From Sulfurimonadaceae bacterium (GTDB lineage: Bacteria > Campylobacterota > Campylobacteria > Campylobacterales > Sulfurimonadaceae): DNA of 64,000 bases. The translations under genes were made by a program, and so were the position numbers. Shown piece after piece: positions 7,659-34,157 of this stretch. The notes beneath the pieces were generated by a model that searched no databases, had not been told where the DNA came from, and saw only the letters and a program-made list of their open reading frames with translations. The stretch is taken from positions 1 through 64,000 of the forward strand of contig JAQUHB010000003.1 of NCBI GenBank assembly GCA_028683835.1. Direction: 5' to 3'. Position 1 is the stretch's first letter; the number at the start of each line of letters is the position of its first letter.

Positions 7659-7674
7659 TGCATCCTCCGTTCTC
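7659..7674 (-). promoter_or_regulatory. nifH: sigma-54-like nifH promoter
   Basis: Minus-strand reading is GAGAAC-GGAGG-ATGCA, matching the local nif motif TAGAAC-N5-TTGCA except at two positions and with exact spacing. The predicted start is near 7648, leaving a leader of about 70 nt before nifH. A -24 GG dinucleotide is absent, as in all copies of this motif here. Confidence 0.5.
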
Positions 7675-7840
7675 GACTTTTTAAACAAAAGAAGTGACAA
7701 AAACTAGCCTTTTACTGACAAAACGGTTCAAACAAGACAAATTTGTAAGAATGGTTTATGCAGAAGTGAAATTTTCATCAAAAACGAAGAATAAAAAGAT
7801 AAGAGAAAACAATAATGGGAGTTTGAAGATAAAAGAGGTT

Positions 7841-7884: not shown

Positions 7885-9390
7885 TTAGACATTGTAGTGG
7901 TAGATATTGAGGTGAGTCTTTTTAAAGCCGCGACGACTGTAAAACTGGAGTGCGTTAGTGTTGTCTACGTCAGCCGCGAGCTGAATACGTTTGTATCCGT
8001 GTTCTAGAGCAAGATTACGCATCTTGTTCATAAGTCGGCTTCCCACACTCATTTTTCTATACTCTTCATGTACGACAAGATCTTCGATCTGTCCTACATA
8101 ATCACCCTCAGCACTTGAGATGAGACGTTGCATCGTAATCATGCCGATCACGTTTTCCTCATACTTTGCTACAAGCAGATCACTGCTCTCATGTTCATAA
8201 AGACGGGTGATACCTGAGAGTTGTTTGTCATAATCAAAAGTGAAATCAGACTCGATAGCAAATAAAACACTGAGGAGTTCTGCCATCTGAGGCAAGTCAT
8301 TCTCTTGCGCTTTATCTATGCTGATCCCTGTTTTCATATTGATATCACAAATGTCTGGGTCTAGTATTGTTATCACTTTTTTTGCCTTTTCGCTCAATCG
8401 GTTTTCCCCTATATATAAGATCTCTAAGTAAGAGAGATTTGCCAAAGAGTCTGGTAGCTCACTTATTTTGTTTTTATCAATATCTAACTCTTGAAGTTTT
8501 GTATATCTCTCAATCTCTTGGGGAATAATTTCTATCTCGTTGGATGAATAACACAGTAGCTCTAATGCTTCAGACTGAGGCAGTAAAAACTCGCTCAATC
8601 CGCAACTGTCACATGAAAATTCTCTCAAATATGGAGCAAAACTAAAATCCAACTCCAGTTTTCGAAATGGATTGTCATCAAGAGTCAATTTTTCTAACTC
8701 TACAAGAGATGAGAGATGAAGAGATCTCAGTAGATTGGAACTTAGATCGATTATCTGTACATCGAGATCAAAAAAAGCATCATCTATCTTTTCTATATGA
8801 TTGTAAGATACATTTAACTCTTCGATGGAAAGTAAACCTTTTATGGATGATGGAATCTCTTTCATAAGATTTTCACTTAGATTAAGACGTTCCACATTTC
8901 CTAAAAACTCAAAAACATTACTCATATCATGACAAAGATTTGATGCAATGTTCAAAGTTCTTAACTCATTCTCTTCGGCTAAACAATTATCCAAAGATTT
9001 AAGCATATTATCACTGAGATCAAGAACTTTTATATGTAAGCACTGTTTTAAAACAGAAAGATCGCTGAGTTTATTTGAACATGCATTGATAGAACGTAAC
9101 GGCATGTACTGTAGCACTGGTGGCAAAATCTCAAAACGATTTCTTCGTATATCAAGATTACTCAATTTCACTAAGTTTCTCATCGACTCAGGAAGTGTAC
9201 TCAATCTATTATTTGAAAGATTGAGTACAAGAAGATTCTTGAGCAATCCAAAGTTTTCCGGTAACTCCTCTAGTTTTCGTCCACTTAAATCAAGTCGGGT
9301 GATATCTAAACATGACTTTGTATTCTCATCGATACAATTATGCCAAAGCAACCAGTCGTATAAGAGTTGCTCATCTTTATTCATCTTCAT
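7885..9390 (-). CDS. leucine-rich repeat protein fused to GNAT acetyltransferase
   Basis: A 501-residue fusion. Residues from about 30 to 335 contain roughly a dozen leucine-rich repeats of bacterial type (LxxLDLSxNxLxxLP). Residues from about 345 to the end form a GNAT domain with the acetyl-CoA motif VVHEEYRKMSVGSRLM and the terminal ALQFYSRRGFKKT. The start ATG has AAGGA seven bases upstream, inside the end of the preceding gene. It is last in the nifB operon. LRRs usually bind proteins, so a targeted acetylation of a nif protein is a natural guess, but no partner can be seen. Confidence 0.88.
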   Translation of the reverse strand: MKMNKDEQLLYDWLLWHNCIDENTKSCLDITRLDLSGRKLEELPENFGLLKNLLVLNLSNNRLSTLPESMRNLVKLSNLDIRRNRFEILPPVLQYMPLRSINACSNKLSDLSVLKQCLHIKVLDLSDNMLKSLDNCLAEENELRTLNIASNLCHDMSNVFEFLGNVERLNLSENLMKEIPSSIKGLLSIEELNVSYNHIEKIDDAFFDLDVQIIDLSSNLLRSLHLSSLVELEKLTLDDNPFRKLELDFSFAPYLREFSCDSCGLSEFLLPQSEALELLCYSSNEIEIIPQEIERYTKLQELDIDKNKISELPDSLANLSYLEILYIGENRLSEKAKKVITILDPDICDINMKTGISIDKAQENDLPQMAELLSVLFAIESDFTFDYDKQLSGITRLYEHESSDLLVAKYEENVIGMITMQRLISSAEGDYVGQIEDLVVHEEYRKMSVGSRLMNKMRNLALEHGYKRIQLAADVDNTNALQFYSRRGFKKTHLNIYHYNV

Positions 9391-9658
9391 CACTCGATCC
9401 TTCACTTAGTCTTTTAAGTCTTTCATGACGCTGTTTTATCAAATATGCAATCTCATCATAGTCAAAACGTCCATATTGATTCATATCATACAGTTTTATA
9501 AGCACTCCACGACAACAACTTTTATTGCACTCAGTGACCAGTTTTTTAGCTTTTTTAAAAGGTAGAGCGGTATTTTGAAAGATATCAATAGCTTGAGCGA
9601 CATTCTTTTGGCCACACTCACAAACTTCCATCTCAAGAATTTTCTCTTTTTCCTGCAT
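9377..9658 (-). CDS. small cysteine protein, possibly BFD-like [2Fe-2S]
   Basis: A 93-residue protein with an N-terminal CECGQKNVAQAIDIF and, about 30 residues on, CNKSCC. The CxC...CxxxC layout followed by helices resembles the bacterioferritin-associated ferredoxin (BFD) [2Fe-2S] fold, though I am not certain of the family. The C-terminus is charged (SEGSSDEDE). The start was set at the ATG with AAAGGGAG upstream. It overlaps the LRR/GNAT start by 14 bases. An electron-transfer or iron-mobilising role in nitrogenase assembly is inference. Confidence 0.65.
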   Translation of the reverse strand: MQEKEKILEMEVCECGQKNVAQAIDIFQNTALPFKKAKKLVTECNKSCCRGVLIKLYDMNQYGRFDYDEIAYLIKQRHERLKRLSEGSSDEDE

Positions 9659-13667: not shown

Positions 13668-13698
13668 AATGATCTCGCCTCATGTAGCTACAATCATT
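13668..13698 (-). promoter_or_regulatory. 31-nt leader element shared with ferredoxin gene
   Basis: Minus-strand sequence starts AATGATTGTAGCTACATGAG and ends GATCATT. It matches 25786-25816 at 27 of 31 positions. It begins 5-6 nt after the predicted start of the nifB transcript and its ends can pair (AATGAT with ATCATT) with TGTAGCTACA inside. Confidence 0.6.
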
Positions 13699-13713: not shown

Positions 13714-13729
13714 TGCAATTGATGTTCTA
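13714..13729 (-). promoter_or_regulatory. nifB: sigma-54-like nifB promoter
   Basis: Minus-strand TAGAAC-ATCAA-TTGCA, an exact copy of the motif consensus in this window, preceded by CTC and followed by TTAA. The predicted start is near 13703, giving a leader of about 150 nt. Confidence 0.65.
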
Positions 13730-13758
13730 GAGAGAAGTTTTAGTTTTAGACACAATGA

Positions 13759-16928: not shown

Positions 16929-16995
16929 CAGCGTTCCTTTGTATTACATGTAAGACAATAATGTACAATTTTTGTCCGATTTAGTAAACTCTCTC

Positions 16996-17011
16996 TAGAA
17001 TATTAAATGCA
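16996..17011 (+). promoter_or_regulatory. sigma-54-like promoter of the nifX-clpPX-nifS operon
   Basis: TAGAAT-ATTAA-ATGCA on the plus strand, preceded by CTC as in the nifB copy, two bases from the window consensus with exact spacing. The predicted start is about 17022, 24 bases before the first ATG. An imperfect TTACATGTAAGACA / ACAATTTTTGTC array lies 25-50 bases upstream (16944-16977). Confidence 0.5.
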
Positions 17012-17045
17012 ATAAACTTCATAAATTCACGTAAAGGTGCAGTTT

Positions 17046-17489
17046 ATGCAGATCGCTATTCCAACAGACAATGAAAATGCAATCTATCATGACAACGCCT
17101 ATACTGCTCCAAAATTTTCGATTTATACGATTATCATAAAGAACAAAACAGATATTAGTTTTTCGCTCCAACAGATCATTTATAATCCACTTAGTAGACT
17201 TAAATGTGAAGATTTTGATGAGACACAACTTAAATGCAGTTGCGATAAAGAACATGCGAGCAATTTACACCACATTTATGAGCATTACTCACTTCTTGAT
17301 CTTATTGCCGGCTGTCAATACCTTCTGGCAACACGTTATTGTAAAAATGTTATCAGAAGTATGAAAAACGGCGGAATCCTTATCTATAAAATCCCGCCGA
17401 TCATCAAAAATGCAGACAATGCAATCAAAAATTTTCTTATAGGAGCTTCCTTTGCAAATACAGCACAACACATACACCATGCATCTTAA
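17046..17489 (+). CDS. NifX/NafY-like cofactor-binding domain protein
   Basis: A 147-residue protein starting MQIAIPTDNENAIYHDNAYT, the strand-loop opening of the dinitrogenase iron-molybdenum cofactor domain. The later CQYLLATRYCKNVIRSMKNGGILIY resembles the domain's second half, with a cysteine-containing insert (CEDFDETQLKCSCDKEHASN) absent from ordinary NifX. ATG chosen over an upstream GTG because AAAGG stands eight bases before it. It is first in an operon with clpP, clpX and nifS. It may carry or store a cofactor precursor. Confidence 0.8.
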   Translation: MQIAIPTDNENAIYHDNAYTAPKFSIYTIIIKNKTDISFSLQQIIYNPLSRLKCEDFDETQLKCSCDKEHASNLHHIYEHYSLLDLIAGCQYLLATRYCKNVIRSMKNGGILIYKIPPIIKNADNAIKNFLIGASFANTAQHIHHAS

Positions 17490-18806: not shown

Positions 18807-19402
18807 ATGCCAATTATTCCAACAGTAAAAGACCGTTCGCCTCGTGGAGAGCGATACTTTGACCTTTTTTCAAAACTGATAAGCGACCGCGTTATTATCA
18901 TAACAGAACAAGTCGATGACCACATGATGGGCGTTATCGTCGCTCAGCTTTTATACCTTGAAGCGGAAGATTCAAGCGAGCCAATCCATATGTATATCAG
19001 CTCTCCTGGTGGCTCAGTTATGGCTGGTCTTGCTATCTTAGACACAATGCAGCTCATCACAGCTCCTGTTTACACGTATGCTATGGGGATGGTTGCTTCT
19101 ATGGCAGCCGTTTTATTTACATGTGGAGAAAAAGGTCACAGATATATGTTGCCAAATGCCGAAATCATGATCCATCAGCCACTTGGCGGTACGCAGGGTC
19201 AAGCAAGCGACATCGAGATTCAAGCAAAACACATCATGAATCTTAAAAAAAGACTTTATAAAATTCTTTCAAAGGCGACTGGAAAACATGTTAAGACTAT
19301 TGAAAAAGAGAGCGATCGTGATAACTATTTTGAAGCAGAGCAAGCGATTGCATTTGGATTGGCCGACAGCATATTAACTAAAATCTCTCAAAAGGATGTG
19401 TG

Positions 19403-19403
<1 letters not shown>
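18807..19403 (+). CDS. clpP: ClpP protease subunit encoded in nif operon
   Basis: A 198-residue serine protease subunit. The nucleophile serine is in GMVASMAAVL, the histidine in IMIHQPLGG and the aspartate follows in the ESDRDNYFEAEQAI segment, so the triad is complete. The N-terminal IPTVKDRSPRGERYFDLFSKL segment differs from the housekeeping IPxVIExTxRGERAYDIYSRLL, a sign of specialisation. It shares a TGATG junction with clpX. A nif-dedicated second ClpXP is inferred from operon position. Confidence 0.93.
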
Positions 19404-21794
<2,391 letters not shown>

Positions 21795-21841
21795 CTAGAA
21801 CCAAAATTGCATTAAAAAAAGAAATTTCAAAAAGGAAACTT

Positions 21842-22408
21842 ATGTCAAAAGTACAAGAATTCATCTACAACAATAACCTTCAATGGCAAGCATCATTTAA
21901 TGCTAAAACAGACAAGTATGCTTATGGCTACAGAGGGAGTTTGGTTATCACGCCTGGTCAAATACTCTCAGCGGATAAACAGCTTCCTCCAAAAGCGACA
22001 GCGACTCAAACAATCTTGCTCAGCAACAGCGACGTAATAGATTTTATAGCATGTGAACTAGAAACCCTTGATTTCTTCGAGCCATTTGTTGAGCGTTATA
22101 AAGAGATCCTTTCTCCTGATGGACTCTATATTCTTTTTGTAACTGATCTTGATAGTGATGGTAAATTTACTTATGAAGGTTTGACATTTTATGCATTCGC
22201 ACTTGACGAGAGTTCGGTATGGAATGAACTTCTTGACCACGCAGACCTTCCAAAAGGGGACTTGAAAAAAGCAAGCGCAGAAGAGAAAATAGATATCGTT
22301 TATGACGAGATTAAAAGAACGACTTTACGTATCAAAGATAAAACTTACGAAGAGATCAAAGCACTTAAAAATGCAAGTAAAGCTAAAACTTTATTTGGAG
22401 CTGTATAA
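21842..22408 (+). CDS. hypothetical protein, last gene of clpX-nifS operon
   Basis: A 188-residue soluble protein without recognisable domains. It has mixed strands and helices, contains ETLDFFEPFVERYKEILSPDGLYILF and ends in a lysine-rich helix (YEEIKALKNASKAKTLFGAV). A single cysteine is present. AAAGGAAACTT stands before its ATG, 47 bases after nifS, so it is probably co-transcribed. No function is assigned. Confidence 0.7.
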   Translation: MSKVQEFIYNNNLQWQASFNAKTDKYAYGYRGSLVITPGQILSADKQLPPKATATQTILLSNSDVIDFIACELETLDFFEPFVERYKEILSPDGLYILFVTDLDSDGKFTYEGLTFYAFALDESSVWNELLDHADLPKGDLKKASAEEKIDIVYDEIKRTTLRIKDKTYEEIKALKNASKAKTLFGAV

Positions 22409-25370: not shown

Positions 25371-25763
25371 TCAGCCTACCTCGCCCTCTTGCGGTTCTTC
25401 TTGAACTTTTTCCCCTATTCCGCGCTTTGTCAATGGAATATCTTCACGGAATTTTTTCTCTTTATACGCAGGAGATCTTGCAATACCATTTTTACTTCCA
25501 AGTTTATATATTTCTGCATTGAGAAAATGCGCATCAAACTCTTTAGTAAAAGGCATATCCCAAGTGATACATCCGATGCTTGGACAGATCGCCGCACATT
25601 GAGGATCGTCAAAGATGCCGACACACTCGACACACTTTTCAGGTTGAACATAGTAACGAGGATTTCCCGTTGGGTTATTGCCATCATCCACTATCGCCTC
25701 AACAGGACAGTTTTGCAAACATGCATCACAAGTTATACAAGTATCGTTTATTATTACAGCCAT
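25371..25763 (-). CDS. nif-type 2[4Fe-4S] ferredoxin, copy 1
   Basis: A 130-residue ferredoxin. The first cluster motif is CITCDACLQNCP and the second CVECVGIFDDPQCAAICP (C-x2-C-x8-C-x3-C), as in the Allochromatium type; an extra cysteine follows at PSIGC. The shared WDMPFTKEF tail and a basic C-terminus mark it as paralogous to the genes at 29802 and 30704. It stands alone with its own sigma-54-like promoter and a leader element shared with nifB, so it may be the electron donor matched to NifB or nitrogenase. Confidence 0.92.
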   Translation of the reverse strand: MAVIINDTCITCDACLQNCPVEAIVDDGNNPTGNPRYYVQPEKCVECVGIFDDPQCAAICPSIGCITWDMPFTKEFDAHFLNAEIYKLGSKNGIARSPAYKEKKFREDIPLTKRGIGEKVQEEPQEGEVG

Positions 25764-25785
25764 CATATGTTCCTTGATTTGGGTT

Positions 25786-25816
25786 AATGACCTTGCATCA
25801 TATAGCTACAATCATT
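25786..25816 (-). promoter_or_regulatory. 31-nt leader element shared with nifB
   Basis: The counterpart of 13668-13698 with 27 of 31 bases identical, again beginning within a few bases of the predicted transcript start. The four differences leave the AATGA / TCATT end pairing intact. Confidence 0.6.
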
Positions 25817-25831
25817 CTTATACACACTAAT

Positions 25832-25847
25832 TGCAATATACGTTCTA
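25832..25847 (-). promoter_or_regulatory. sigma-54-like promoter of ferredoxin copy 1
   Basis: Minus-strand TAGAAC-GTATA-TTGCA, an exact match to the motif seen before nifB. The predicted start is close to 25821, about 55 bases before the ATG. Confidence 0.65.
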
Positions 25848-25882
25848 GAAGACCTACATGTGAGGAAAATAAGGAGGAAATC

Positions 25883-30703: not shown

Positions 30704-31096
30704 TTAAAAAGAATCCATAACGTTCGCGTGAGAAGTACGAGCATCCATAGGGATTTCAGCCATAAATGCTTGTTCTTTTACAGTCGGAAGCATTAAACCT
30801 TTAGATTTGTGCTCACGGATCTTGTATATTTGGGCATCATTACCCTCAGAAAAGTAGTCGTTAAACTCTACAGTATAAGGCATATCCCAAACGATAGAAC
30901 CCTCAGTAGGACAAACATCCGCACAACGAGGAGTATCAGCATGACCTACACACTCTACACAAGTTTCAGCTTTTACATAAAATCTTTCACCCTCGAACGG
31001 ATTTTTGTCGTTATCATCCGGCAAAATTGCCGCTACAGGACACTCAGATGCACACGCATCACAGTTTATACACTCTTCAGTTATCATTACAGCCAT
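30704..31096 (-). CDS. nif-type 2[4Fe-4S] ferredoxin, copy 3
   Basis: A 130-residue ferredoxin with CINCDACASECP and CVECVGHADTPRCADVCP, so both clusters keep four cysteines, but the extra cysteine present in copies 1 and 2 is serine here (TEGS). The WDMPYTVEFNDYF block is shared. The start ATG has AAGGAG six bases upstream; a longer in-frame start is not supported. It is third in the operon Sel1-Nfu, Mop, Fdx3, NifX, Fdx2. Confidence 0.92.
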   Translation of the reverse strand: MAVMITEECINCDACASECPVAAILPDDNDKNPFEGERFYVKAETCVECVGHADTPRCADVCPTEGSIVWDMPYTVEFNDYFSEGNDAQIYKIREHKSKGLMLPTVKEQAFMAEIPMDARTSHANVMDSF

Positions 31097-31150
31097 TTGG
31101 TACTCCTTATTTTTTAATAATTTAGAAATAATATGCAAGTTTTATTCGAA

Positions 31151-31573
31151 CTAAAAACTGCTCACTTTAAGATTTTCGAGCAAGGGTTCGAGTTTAATAT
31201 CGATTCCACGTAAAAGCATCGTTGCCTTACATCCCTCTTGCAGATCAAGTTTATCATACGCATTTGCCGTGATTAGAGAGATGATGTCTCCAAAATCACT
31301 ATTGTTTAAAGTCAGCTCGCAAAGAGAATTATTGCGTCTAACATTTTGCAAAGTTACGGGAAGCGTATTTTCTATGGAAACTTTCCCCGGACAATCTTTA
31401 CTTAAACACACAGAACCCTCTTGAAAATTGCAGTAGACTTTGTCGCCCACACTCAGCCACTTGGGTTTTTCTGACTTTATTAAATACATCGCACTCTCGC
31501 CACTGTTTACATGTATGTAAGTTACGATATCTGTTTCTTCGATATTTTGAACTGTTGCAATAACTTTATTCAT
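31151..31573 (-). CDS. molybdate-binding Mop/TOBE protein
   Basis: A 140-residue protein made of two TOBE-like units: NKVIATVQNIEETDIVTYIHVNSG and LPVTLQNVRRNNSLCELTLNNSD, with IISLITANAYDKLDLQEGCKATMLLRG in the second. These resemble the molybdopterin/molybdate-binding domains of molbindin and the C-terminal half of ModE. It probably buffers cytosolic molybdate for FeMo-cofactor. The inserted CLSKDCPG is unusual for molbindins. Located in the ferredoxin-NifX operon, ten bases after the Sel1-Nfu gene. Confidence 0.8.
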   Translation of the reverse strand: MNKVIATVQNIEETDIVTYIHVNSGESAMYLIKSEKPKWLSVGDKVYCNFQEGSVCLSKDCPGKVSIENTLPVTLQNVRRNNSLCELTLNNSDFGDIISLITANAYDKLDLQEGCKATMLLRGIDIKLEPLLENLKVSSF

Positions 31574-31582
31574 AAGTTTTGC

Positions 31583-32308
31583 CTACATCAAATAAAGTAC
31601 GACATTTTTGTCGATCATCGTCTCAAAATGGTTCAACAACATGTCTGCCGTTGATGTCGAACCTAAATGACAACCTGAACAAGTTCCCTGATAATTAAGC
31701 CACACTTGTGGTTTATCTCCTGGAATATAGTTAACAAGCTCAATTCCGCCACCGTCAATTGCCAGTGTCGGACGTATCTTTGTCTCTACGAGGTTTTCCA
31801 CAAGAGCTTTTTGTTTTAAAGGATCAAAAGCGTGAAAGATCTCATTTTTCTCAGTTGTAGTACCTGAATTACTTACATACGTAATCATCTCTTGAGCTTG
31901 TTTATTGTCGTTATATGCCGCTGTGATGAGATAACGCATCGCTTCGGCAGTATTGTCAAGTTGTTTAAAAAGAATTCCTGCTTTTACCTGAGATTCTACA
32001 TGACCAGTATCAGCAGCCATCTTGTAATACTCAAGTGCTTTATCTATATCTATCGCACCTATCATCCCTTTTTCATAAAAGATACCAAGAGAATGCTGTG
32101 CTTTGACATTTCCAAGTTCAGAAGCTTTCAAAAACCAAGATGAAGCCAATTCATAACTTTGTGTACATCCACGTCCTTGCATATGCATGATGGCAAGATT
32201 GACCATCGCATCAGGATTTTCTGATGCAACCTCAGCAAAAAGTCCGTATGCTCCACTATAATTTTTTGATTCAAACTCTTGTAATGCTCTCATAAATATT
32301 TCACTCAT
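31583..32308 (-). CDS. Sel1-repeat protein fused to Nfu (NifU C-terminal) domain
   Basis: A 241-residue fusion. Residues about 15-140 form Sel1-type helical repeats (NLAIMHMQGRGCTQSYELASSWFLKASELG and following units). Residues about 165-241 are an Nfu domain, with PTLAIDGGGIELVNY and the cluster-binding CSGCHLGSTST. Nfu domains carry a [4Fe-4S] cluster for transfer to apoproteins; Sel1 repeats bind proteins. No classical NifU with an IscU-type N-terminus is in the window, so this may replace or assist it together with NifS. Confidence 0.88.
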   Translation of the reverse strand: MSEIFMRALQEFESKNYSGAYGLFAEVASENPDAMVNLAIMHMQGRGCTQSYELASSWFLKASELGNVKAQHSLGIFYEKGMIGAIDIDKALEYYKMAADTGHVESQVKAGILFKQLDNTAEAMRYLITAAYNDNKQAQEMITYVSNSGTTTEKNEIFHAFDPLKQKALVENLVETKIRPTLAIDGGGIELVNYIPGDKPQVWLNYQGTCSGCHLGSTSTADMLLNHFETMIDKNVVLYLM

Positions 32309-32343: not shown

Positions 32344-32359
32344 TGCAACAAATGTTCTA
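32344..32359 (-). promoter_or_regulatory. sigma-54-like promoter, leftward
   Basis: Minus-strand TAGAAC-ATTTG-TTGCA, an exact consensus copy, driving the Sel1-Nfu operon with a short leader of about 25 nt. Its -24 half overlaps that of the rightward promoter within the palindrome GTTCTAGAAC. Confidence 0.65.
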
Positions 32360-32373
32360 GAACTCTTTTTGCA
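32358..32373 (+). promoter_or_regulatory. sigma-54-like promoter, rightward
   Basis: Plus-strand TAGAAC-TCTTT-TTGCA, an exact consensus copy, driving the gene at 32404. Start predicted near 32384, 20 bases before the ATG and just before the AAAGGAG ribosome site. Confidence 0.65.
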
Positions 32374-32403: not shown

Positions 32404-32793
32404 ATGATTGCGATCCCTGTAGATTCTGTATCAACAGATGTAAAATCATCCAAACTGTTTGGTAATGTCAAAATGTTTGCTATATACAAACCCAAAGAAG
32501 ACACCTTCTTTTTTATACTCAATAAAGAGAGCGGAAACGGTATCAAAACAGCCAAGATGCTCAAAAAATGGAATATAAAATGTGTCGTTTACTCTTATAT
32601 GGGTAACGGTCCATTTTCTGAATTAAACAAAGATAAAATCGATGTTTACTATATAGGTAAAGAGCCGATGGAACTGAGCCAGATCATAAAAAGTCTCACA
32701 GATGAAAGATTTGTAAAAGTAACAAAATCAAATGCAGACACCTATCTTGACTCAGGAACAGCGACACAAAACTGTGAGTGTGGCTGTGCATGA
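32404..32793 (+). CDS. NifX/NafY-like protein with CxCxC tail
   Basis: A 129-residue protein opening MIAIPVDSVSTDVKSSKLFG and continuing KMFAIYKPKEDTFFFI, the nitrogenase cofactor domain layout, although QHFG is replaced by SKLFG. The C-terminus ends NCECGCA, a possible metal or cluster ligand set absent from ordinary NifX. It heads a plus-strand operon of three unknown genes. The next gene overlaps its stop as ATGA. Confidence 0.8.
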   Translation: MIAIPVDSVSTDVKSSKLFGNVKMFAIYKPKEDTFFFILNKESGNGIKTAKMLKKWNIKCVVYSYMGNGPFSELNKDKIDVYYIGKEPMELSQIIKSLTDERFVKVTKSNADTYLDSGTATQNCECGCA

Positions 32794-33023
32794 GAGAGTA
32801 TAAAAAAGAGATTCTTACTCCCGAGATGCAAGAGATAAGATCAATGATTCTCAATACTGTCACACAACGTGAAGCAATAAAAAGCGAGATGGAACTTTGG
32901 TTTGAGCAGCATCCAAAACAGAACTATCCAAATATGAAAAATCTTATTTTGGTAGATGCAACACTCTCAAAATTGGATAGTTTCTATAAGCAGTTATGGG
33001 ATTACCATAATACTTTGAAATAA
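32790..33023 (+). CDS. hypothetical helical protein
   Basis: A 77-residue protein, mostly helical (TPEMQEIRSMILNTVTQREAI, then a second helix ending WDYHNTLK). No cysteines and no family recognised. The start ATG overlaps the preceding stop codon, and only three bases separate its stop from the next gene, so it is firmly in the operon. Possibly a small partner of the NifX-like protein, by position only. Confidence 0.7.
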   Translation: MREYKKEILTPEMQEIRSMILNTVTQREAIKSEMELWFEQHPKQNYPNMKNLILVDATLSKLDSFYKQLWDYHNTLK

Positions 33024-33026
33024 CAG

Positions 33027-33629
33027 ATGCAAGAAGAATACAAAACAAAAGCCAGACTTATAGATGAGATCTCTGATATCGAACAATATCGCCCTATTTT
33101 AGAAAAAGACTGTTTTAAAAAAGATGAACCACATTGGAGAAGTTTAAGTAAAAATACCATTACCCTTTTTCAAGTGCTCATCGACCAAGATATGAAAGAT
33201 CTTGTCAATGTACTCAATCACTATCCGCAGTATACAGAATGGGTATGTGAGCATTTTCGCTATGCATACAGTTATAGTGAAAACGAAGCAGATATCAGTG
33301 CAACGTCTGATCTTCTTTTCTTGGGAGAACAATACTTTTCAAAACAGTTTGTAAGAAATGTAGTACGCAAACTTCCAAAAATAGATGATATCAGCATCGA
33401 AGAAGTGACAAAACTTGCTTTACGTGTAGAGCAAAATCATATAAAATGGCATCCGATAGTAACAAATTATTTTCTCGATGCGATTGCAAGATATATCAAT
33501 ATGTCGCATCTTCATCCCTTGCAACGTATTGTAGTGATGAAGCCGATACGCAAGCTTGAGCACAGAGAAACCTATATCTATGATGCCGATGATCGTGACG
33601 CAGTTTTAGATATACCTTACATGAATTAA
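33027..33629 (+). CDS. hypothetical soluble protein
   Basis: A 200-residue, largely helical protein of unknown family. Visible blocks are EQYRPILEKDCFKKDEPHWRSL, QDMKDLVNVLNHYPQYTEWVC and a C-terminal IARYINMSHLHPLQRIVVMKP. It contains two cysteines and many histidines, but no known motif. It is third in the operon headed by the NifX-like gene. Its place beside dedicated nif genes and under the same promoter makes a nif role likely but unspecified. Confidence 0.72.
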   Translation: MQEEYKTKARLIDEISDIEQYRPILEKDCFKKDEPHWRSLSKNTITLFQVLIDQDMKDLVNVLNHYPQYTEWVCEHFRYAYSYSENEADISATSDLLFLGEQYFSKQFVRNVVRKLPKIDDISIEEVTKLALRVEQNHIKWHPIVTNYFLDAIARYINMSHLHPLQRIVVMKPIRKLEHRETYIYDADDRDAVLDIPYMN

Positions 33630-33650
33630 ACTAAAAAAAGGAAGAACATT

Positions 33651-34157
33651 ATGGACAAAGAAACACTAACACAGGAACTTTTAAAACAGGCAAGAAACGC
33701 TTTTGAGACAGCTTCAACATTGCGTGAGAGTCAAAGAGTAGAAGTTTATCTTAACAATGGCACACCAAAAACTTCGGATGTTTTAGAAGAGGATGAGGAG
33801 ATCGTCTATTCTCCAACTCGCATACTCTGTTATCAAATCCATGGATACGACTACCTCGAAGATGAGATAAAAACTTGGATCGATTATGCAAGAGAACCAA
33901 ATCCACTAGAAGAAGGTATGCCCATACCTGAACCTACAAATGTAGAGACATCTATCCGTGAACTCATAGATGAACTTGCAAAGAAAAAAAGTTTAAATAG
34001 AGATGAGATTAGCTCATTTGAAGTGTTTGCAAATCTCCCGATGGATCTTCTAGGAAGTATAGAACAACAGATCATCGAATACTGGTGGAGTGCAAATGAA
34101 GAGGAAAATGGAAAAAAACTCGCACTTCAACAGATACAAGAAGCGCTTAGTTTTTAA
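33651..34157 (+). CDS. hypothetical acidic protein
   Basis: A 168-residue acidic protein (VLEEDEEIVYSPTRILCYQIHGYDYLEDEIKTWIDY). The C-terminal half is helical (TSIRELIDELAKKKSLNRDE, then PMDLLGSIEQQIIEYWW). A good SD (AAAGGAAG) precedes it. It is the last gene of this operon; ModE converges on it with only three bases between stops. No family recognised. Confidence 0.72.
   Translation: MDKETLTQELLKQARNAFETASTLRESQRVEVYLNNGTPKTSDVLEEDEEIVYSPTRILCYQIHGYDYLEDEIKTWIDYAREPNPLEEGMPIPEPTNVETSIRELIDELAKKKSLNRDEISSFEVFANLPMDLLGSIEQQIIEYWWSANEEENGKKLALQQIQEALSF

Follow-up and report, generated by a model that had tools for sequence, protein, structure and literature searches.

How two divergent operons might be transcribed from one 95-bp intergenic gap, with what looks like a single -24 element between them, is the question raised by the window analysed here (the whole 64,000-nucleotide stretch). 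It contains a nif region in which family models recognise nifK, nifD, nifH, nifV, nifB, nifS, and several ferredoxin and NifX-like genes. The operon to the left of the gap begins with a gene for a Sel1-repeat protein with a C-terminal NifU-like domain (31583..32308, minus strand; Pfam Sel1 and NifU) and includes a TOBE-domain protein gene (31151..31573, minus strand); beyond it lies a 4Fe-4S ferredoxin-type protein gene (30704..31093, minus strand, taking the ATG of MAVMITEE as the start). Some relatives' versions of the Sel1-Nfu fusion protein align over the C-terminal part only. The operon to the right begins with a gene for a NifX-like protein of the dinitrogenase FeMo-co family (32404..32793, plus strand; Pfam Nitro_FeMo-Co), followed by three more genes for proteins of 76, 200, and 168 aa (32793..34157, plus strand) without a Pfam match that are kept at the junction in relatives. 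Both operons are of nif type and probably co-induced. Elsewhere in the nif region clpP and clpX immediately precede nifS (18807-20611), and the product of a reading frame adjoining nifH (7885-9405) has an N-terminus weakly matching leucine-rich-repeat families and an acetyltransferase-like C-terminus. An Rfam scan found tRNAs only.

A double element at the Sel1-Nfu/NifX-like junction

A sequence-only reading of this DNA had described a palindrome in the gap serving as the -24 half of two exact motifs that run in opposite directions to TTGCA, and the sequence is as it stated. The palindrome GTTCTAGAAC lies at 32354-32363, and its core CTAG (32357-32360) belongs to both -24 elements, so that two exact CTAGAAC-N5-TTGCA elements of opposite facing overlap on these four bases; TTGCA is found on the plus strand at 32369-32373, and TGCAA at 32344-32348 is TTGCA on the minus strand. 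Because CTAG is self-complementary, two promoters can stack on one -24 element. Counting the C of GC as -12, the putative promoter of the NifX-like operon, CTAGAACTCTTTTTGCA (32357..32373, plus strand), has its -24 G at 32360 and its -12 C at 32372, with a predicted start at about 32384; that of the Sel1-Nfu operon, CTAGAACATTTGTTGCA (32344..32360, minus strand), has its -24 G at 32357 and its -12 C at 32345, with a predicted start at about 32333. The leaders from these predicted starts would run for about 20 nt (plus strand) and 25 nt (minus strand) before the ATG, and both contain purine-rich ribosome-binding sequences. No sigma-70-type promoter was found in the junction's intergenic region.

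The canonical sigma-54 (-24/-12) promoter is TGGCAC-N5-TTGC[AT], with GG at -25/-24, and this GG is among the most invariant features of such promoters; promoter searches demand it. Both junction elements resemble the canonical promoter in that i) G stands at -24 and GC at -13/-12; ii) ten bases separate the two dinucleotides (G-N10-GC), and this spacing is rigid; and iii) each element points to a gene at leader distance. They differ from it at -25, where both strands carry AG instead of GG at -25/-24 (related sites have A or C at -25), and at -23, where the A is the same as in the GGAAC flagellar promoters of this genome. The proposal of divergent sigma-54-type promoters with a common -24 element has good support from spacing, orientation, leader geometry, and conservation; the sequence-only reading overlooked that the -24 is AG for GG and part of a nif-wide motif, seemingly that of a second, nif-linked sigma-54.

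The motif in front of nif genes

Six further putative promoters of this type (here called RpoN2-type) could be recognised in the window: CGAGAACGGAGGATGCA upstream of nifH (7659..7675, minus strand) and CTAGAACATCAATTGCA upstream of nifB (13714..13730, minus strand), both genes being identified by family model; CTAGAATATTAAATGCA upstream of the NifX-like reading frame 17037-17489 (16995..17011, plus strand); CTAGAACCAAAATTGCA between nifS and the gene at 21842-22408 (21795..21811, plus strand); CTAGAACGTATATTGCA upstream of the ferredoxin gene at 25371-25766 (25832..25848, minus strand); and TTCGAATAAAACTTGCA, which has C at -25 and precedes the ferredoxin gene at 30704-31093 (31134..31150, minus strand). 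The canonical TGGCAC-N5,6-TTGC is absent from the window. The 2.51-Mb genome has six copies of CTAGAAC-N5-TTGC, and five of them fall within the 64-kb nif window (binomial P ~6e-8); the 17-mer CTAGAAC-N5-TTGCA would be expected 0.36 times genome-wide. The sixth match (C84) of the half-site does not precede a gene and was taken as chance. When the -25 base is left free, matching sites in the window and in relatives precede nifH, nifB, ferredoxin, NifX-like, rpoN2, and other genes.

The genome-wide statistics come from pattern searches and fetched regions, and the promoter set was itself gathered by motif search, so that its fixed positions are circular and the independent evidence lies in spacing, orientation, and positions -27 to -25. 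Across 728 kb of DNA from relatives that carry two sigma-54 genes, TAGAAY-Nn-WTGCA is seen 79 times when n=5 and between 0 and 5 times for each other n from 1 to 10, with 2.8 expected; TGGAAY-N5-WTGCA occurs twice. Judged from these patterns, spacing and orientation are those of promoters, rigid spacing being typical of sigma-54.

The same 30 bp could also be read as a symmetric operator, TGCA-N5-GTTCTAGAAC-N5-TGCA, for a dimeric regulator. The element is indeed a dyad, whose palindrome is perfect over 30 bp or more in one genome (L245), and its conserved columns are TGCA and TTCTAGAA. Against an operator, single asymmetric half-units (G-N10-GC) face nifB, nifH, rpoN2, ferredoxin, and other genes, 21 sites in tandem intergenic regions pointing to the gene and 3 away; the spacers of the double sites are asymmetric (median 1/5); and the leader element of nifB stands at a fixed distance from -12, as if the start lay between. 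We regard the operator as very improbable.

This leader element, TGATTGTAGCTNNATGANGCNNGNTCA, occurs at 13670-13696 and 25788-25814 (both minus strand), where it follows the nifB promoter and a ferredoxin promoter, respectively, at 19-20 nt from the -12 GC, and also in several relatives; none would be expected by shuffling, and it belongs to no Rfam family. It is possibly a leader RNA or a DNA site. Turning to activator sites, the classical NifA site TGT-N10-ACA was not found within about 330 bp upstream of eight window promoters, and a search upstream of the junction for TGT-N10-ACA and TTACATGTAA recognised no activator site near it. Palindromes of the form TTACATGTAA, allowing up to one mismatch, number 24 in the window against 3.9 expected (for example at 7840, 7869, 16944, 1445, 50687, and 51815), with two copies upstream of nifH; the sequence is also present upstream of the 17-kb NifX-like gene. 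Although TTACATGTAA is a possible regulator site, we did not assign it as the activator site, since no copy lies upstream of the double element and some lie far from nif genes.

Two sigma-54 proteins and their activators

The genome of the window encodes exactly two full-length sigma-54 proteins (RpoN1 and RpoN2) and two clear sigma-54 activators: a NifA-like GAF-AAA-HTH protein, whose gene shares a contig with rpoN2, and an FlgR-like receiver-AAA protein without HTH. Canonical sigma-54 promoters need both sigma-54 and an AAA+ activator for transcription, and proteins of both kinds are encoded here. The rpoN2 gene lies elsewhere in the genome, outside the window. RpoN2 has all of the activator-interacting, core-binding, and DNA-binding Pfam domains and matches solved sigma-54 structures; its orthologues, which form their own clade, are about 72-91% identical within the family and about 42% identical to RpoN1, and are found largely in genomes with Sel1-Nfu. 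In known structures the RpoN box binds -24 and the HTH binds -12 (PMC5505868, PMC7057263). The RpoN box contains RRT in 31/31 RpoN1 proteins, whereas 30/30 RpoN2 proteins have RRS or RRV instead, and the SSER that follows the box is altered in RpoN2 to (AF, SF, PF, or SY)KER. We consider the changed RpoN box a candidate for the specificity change among the dozens of clade-wide differences between RpoN1 and RpoN2.

Upstream of rpoN2 in this genome is a copy of the motif, CTAGAACAAAAATTGTA, with matching sites in most relatives examined, and on this evidence RpoN2 appears to be autoregulated. The flagellar flgI and flgH promoters of the genome (genes recognised from sequence, not by model) are TTGGAAC-N5-TTGCT. 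RpoN2 is nif-linked and its occurrence follows that of these promoters. Gene content, linkage, and promoter motifs agree, and there seems to be a nif-dedicated RpoN2 separate from a flagellar RpoN1.

Probable overlapping promoters, with proposed exclusion and possible competition

Considering the motif, its spacing, orientation, and conservation, the two sigma-54 and two activator genes, and gene co-occurrence, we think it likely that the 30 bp hold two promoters, overlapping and back to back, for a nif-dedicated RpoN2 holoenzyme, in which A at -25 most likely excludes RpoN1. RpoN2 holoenzyme would transcribe leftwards into the Sel1-Nfu operon and rightwards into the NifX-like operon, each polymerase setting its RpoN box on the common element centred on CTAG and placing its HTH at the TGCA of its own promoter; the -24 would be CTAGAA(C/T), not the flagellar TTGGAAC, and RpoN2 with its changed recognition helix would tolerate A at -25. 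In other sigma-54 closed complexes the DNA is contacted from roughly -33 to -5 (PMC5505868), and these zones of the two junction promoters overlap at 32351-32366. Given contacts of that extent, it follows from the geometry that two holoenzymes should be unable to bind together, because their contacts overlap. A polymerase docked on one promoter would, through the common CTAG and the contact overlap, bar a second; a NifA-type activator would open whichever closed complex is present; and after promoter escape the site would be free for either direction.

The sequence-only reading had suggested looking for the back-to-back arrangement in other genomes. The 30-bp double element occurs at 14 places in about 85,000 prokaryote species genomes (257 Gb), all at this junction and all in records of Campylobacterota type, on contigs titled Sulfurimonas, Sulfurimonadaceae, Helicobacteraceae, Campylobacterales, or just "bacterium". 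Base composition alone would give about 10 chance matches in 257 Gb, so what counts is that the matches are confined to one junction; the double element is not due to chance. The window's genome has it once; a search of 399 genomes of the order found it in 8, once each, the reversed control pattern giving 0; and of the 30 Sel1-Nfu loci that score best in the family, 11 carry it upstream of Sel1-Nfu. A Nfu-type gene is on one side in 13 of the 14 matches; the fourteenth contig breaks off on that side and has the right-hand operon. The first right-hand gene differs among the matches (NifX-like, or the 76-aa or 168-aa gene), and the promoter pair has therefore outlasted gene exchange.

Could competition itself be the selected function, the common -24 holding two operons in a fixed ratio? 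The exact overlap has been kept in at least 17 genomes (the 14 plus the window's genome, G016, and G030, these three not being obviously among the 14) while the adjoining genes were exchanged; G025 also carries the double element. Compactness or common descent would explain this retention equally well, and in relatives of genus 15 the two sites, also back to back, are separated by 7-8 bp more and have no common bases. Two polymerases would probably still clash there, so that these relatives provide no clean test. Selection for a fixed ratio seems doubtful to us. Competition is possible as a regulatory device, and the altered -24 with its sigma factor is the stronger finding.

The base at -25

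Among 85 promoter-proximal sites in 14 two-sigma genomes, the -25 base is A in 75, C in 9, G in 1, and T in 0; the background of coding matches has A40 T16 C8 G5. The 39 sites in eight genomes confirmed to have RpoN2 as their single sigma-54 have A23 G8 C5 T3, although many genomes are metagenome assemblies, some of which may lack RpoN1 through a gap in the assembly; G010, G025, G027, G036, and G044 are complete single-contig genomes, free of this doubt. G at -25 is thus found at 8/39 RpoN2-only sites vs 1/85 two-sigma sites (Fisher P = 4e-4). The RpoN2-only genomes richest in G at -25 are partly GC-rich (0.48-0.56), and base composition may account for part of the difference, but G423 (GC 0.39) shows G too. 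The nifB promoter can be aligned on its conserved downstream leader element, a landmark independent of the promoter motif: in six two-sigma genomes it reads CTAGAAC, and in two RpoN2-only genomes CTGGAAT and CGGGAAC. The rpoN2 promoter has G at -25 only in RpoN2-only genomes (G025, G007, G423, and G332).

Sigma-54 promoters with a single deviation from the consensus are known, and the junction elements could be ordinary sigma-54 promoters read by either sigma-54, with A at -25 the product of neutral drift. This would fit the use of A in RpoN2-only genomes as well, G070, G084, and G045 still having it. Drift does not explain A75:T0, however, nor the scarcity of G in two-sigma genomes compared with RpoN2-only genomes; the flagellar promoters of the window's own genome keep GG; and in E. 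coli both G positions of sigma-54 promoters seldom deviate (PMC4591121). We consider drift improbable. Returning to promoters dedicated to RpoN2, we read A at -25 as repelling RpoN1 because RpoN2-only genomes use G in several nif promoters: A at -25 probably keeps the flagellar sigma-54 away, with selection against GG wherever RpoN1 could bind.

RpoN3 and comparison with known systems

Three genomes (G141, G139, and G090; L199-L207) have a different second sigma-54, of the RpoN3 clade, and their nif promoters are AAGGAAC-N5-WTG(T/A)A, in which GG is retained and the near-invariant -12 C replaced. By its promoter sequences the RpoN3 clade appears to achieve a like insulation by altering -12 instead. 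We lean slightly toward a general scheme in which the nif regulon of Sulfurimonas-type Campylobacterota is insulated from the flagellar sigma-54, RpoN2 promoters by G->A at -25 (freeing CTAG) and RpoN3 promoters by GC->GT/GA at -12, and in which RpoN2 promoters drift back to GG once there is no flagellar sigma-54.

We wish to stress that standard scans requiring GG would miss a whole nif regulon of this kind. If RpoN2 reads AG, such genomes would supply natural sigma-54 pairs that differ in letter preference, so that -24 recognition could be tested by exchanging a few residues, and they would explain simply how two sigma-54 regulons can coexist in one cell; the double element would be a compact, naturally occurring example of two closed complexes, both activator-dependent, that must exclude each other.

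That sigma-54 paralogues specialise is already known. We did not find a description of discrimination at -25, or of that at -12 in RpoN3, and our search of open-access papers, which does not prove absence, found no nif sigma-54 with an altered -24 in Campylobacterota. In Bradyrhizobium DOA9, Mesorhizobium loti, and other two-rpoN genomes, as here, one sigma-54 is tied to nitrogen fixation, and unlike here the abstracts on Bradyrhizobium DOA9 and Mesorhizobium loti mention no altered -24 element (PMC9977809, PMC3538637). A close parallel is Cereibacter (Rhodobacter) sphaeroides, where RpoN1 and RpoN2 are reported to serve nif and flagellar genes separately, each with its own activator and with discrimination by promoter sequence (PMC11999139, citing Poggio et al. 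2002 and 2006). Cereibacter belongs to a different phylum, and the likeness is one of system, not a demonstrated kinship of the paralogues. The discriminating position reported there is -11, with GG kept (PMC11999139), whereas the promoters described here depart from GG at -25, and also differ at -11 between flagellar TTGCT and nif WTGCA.
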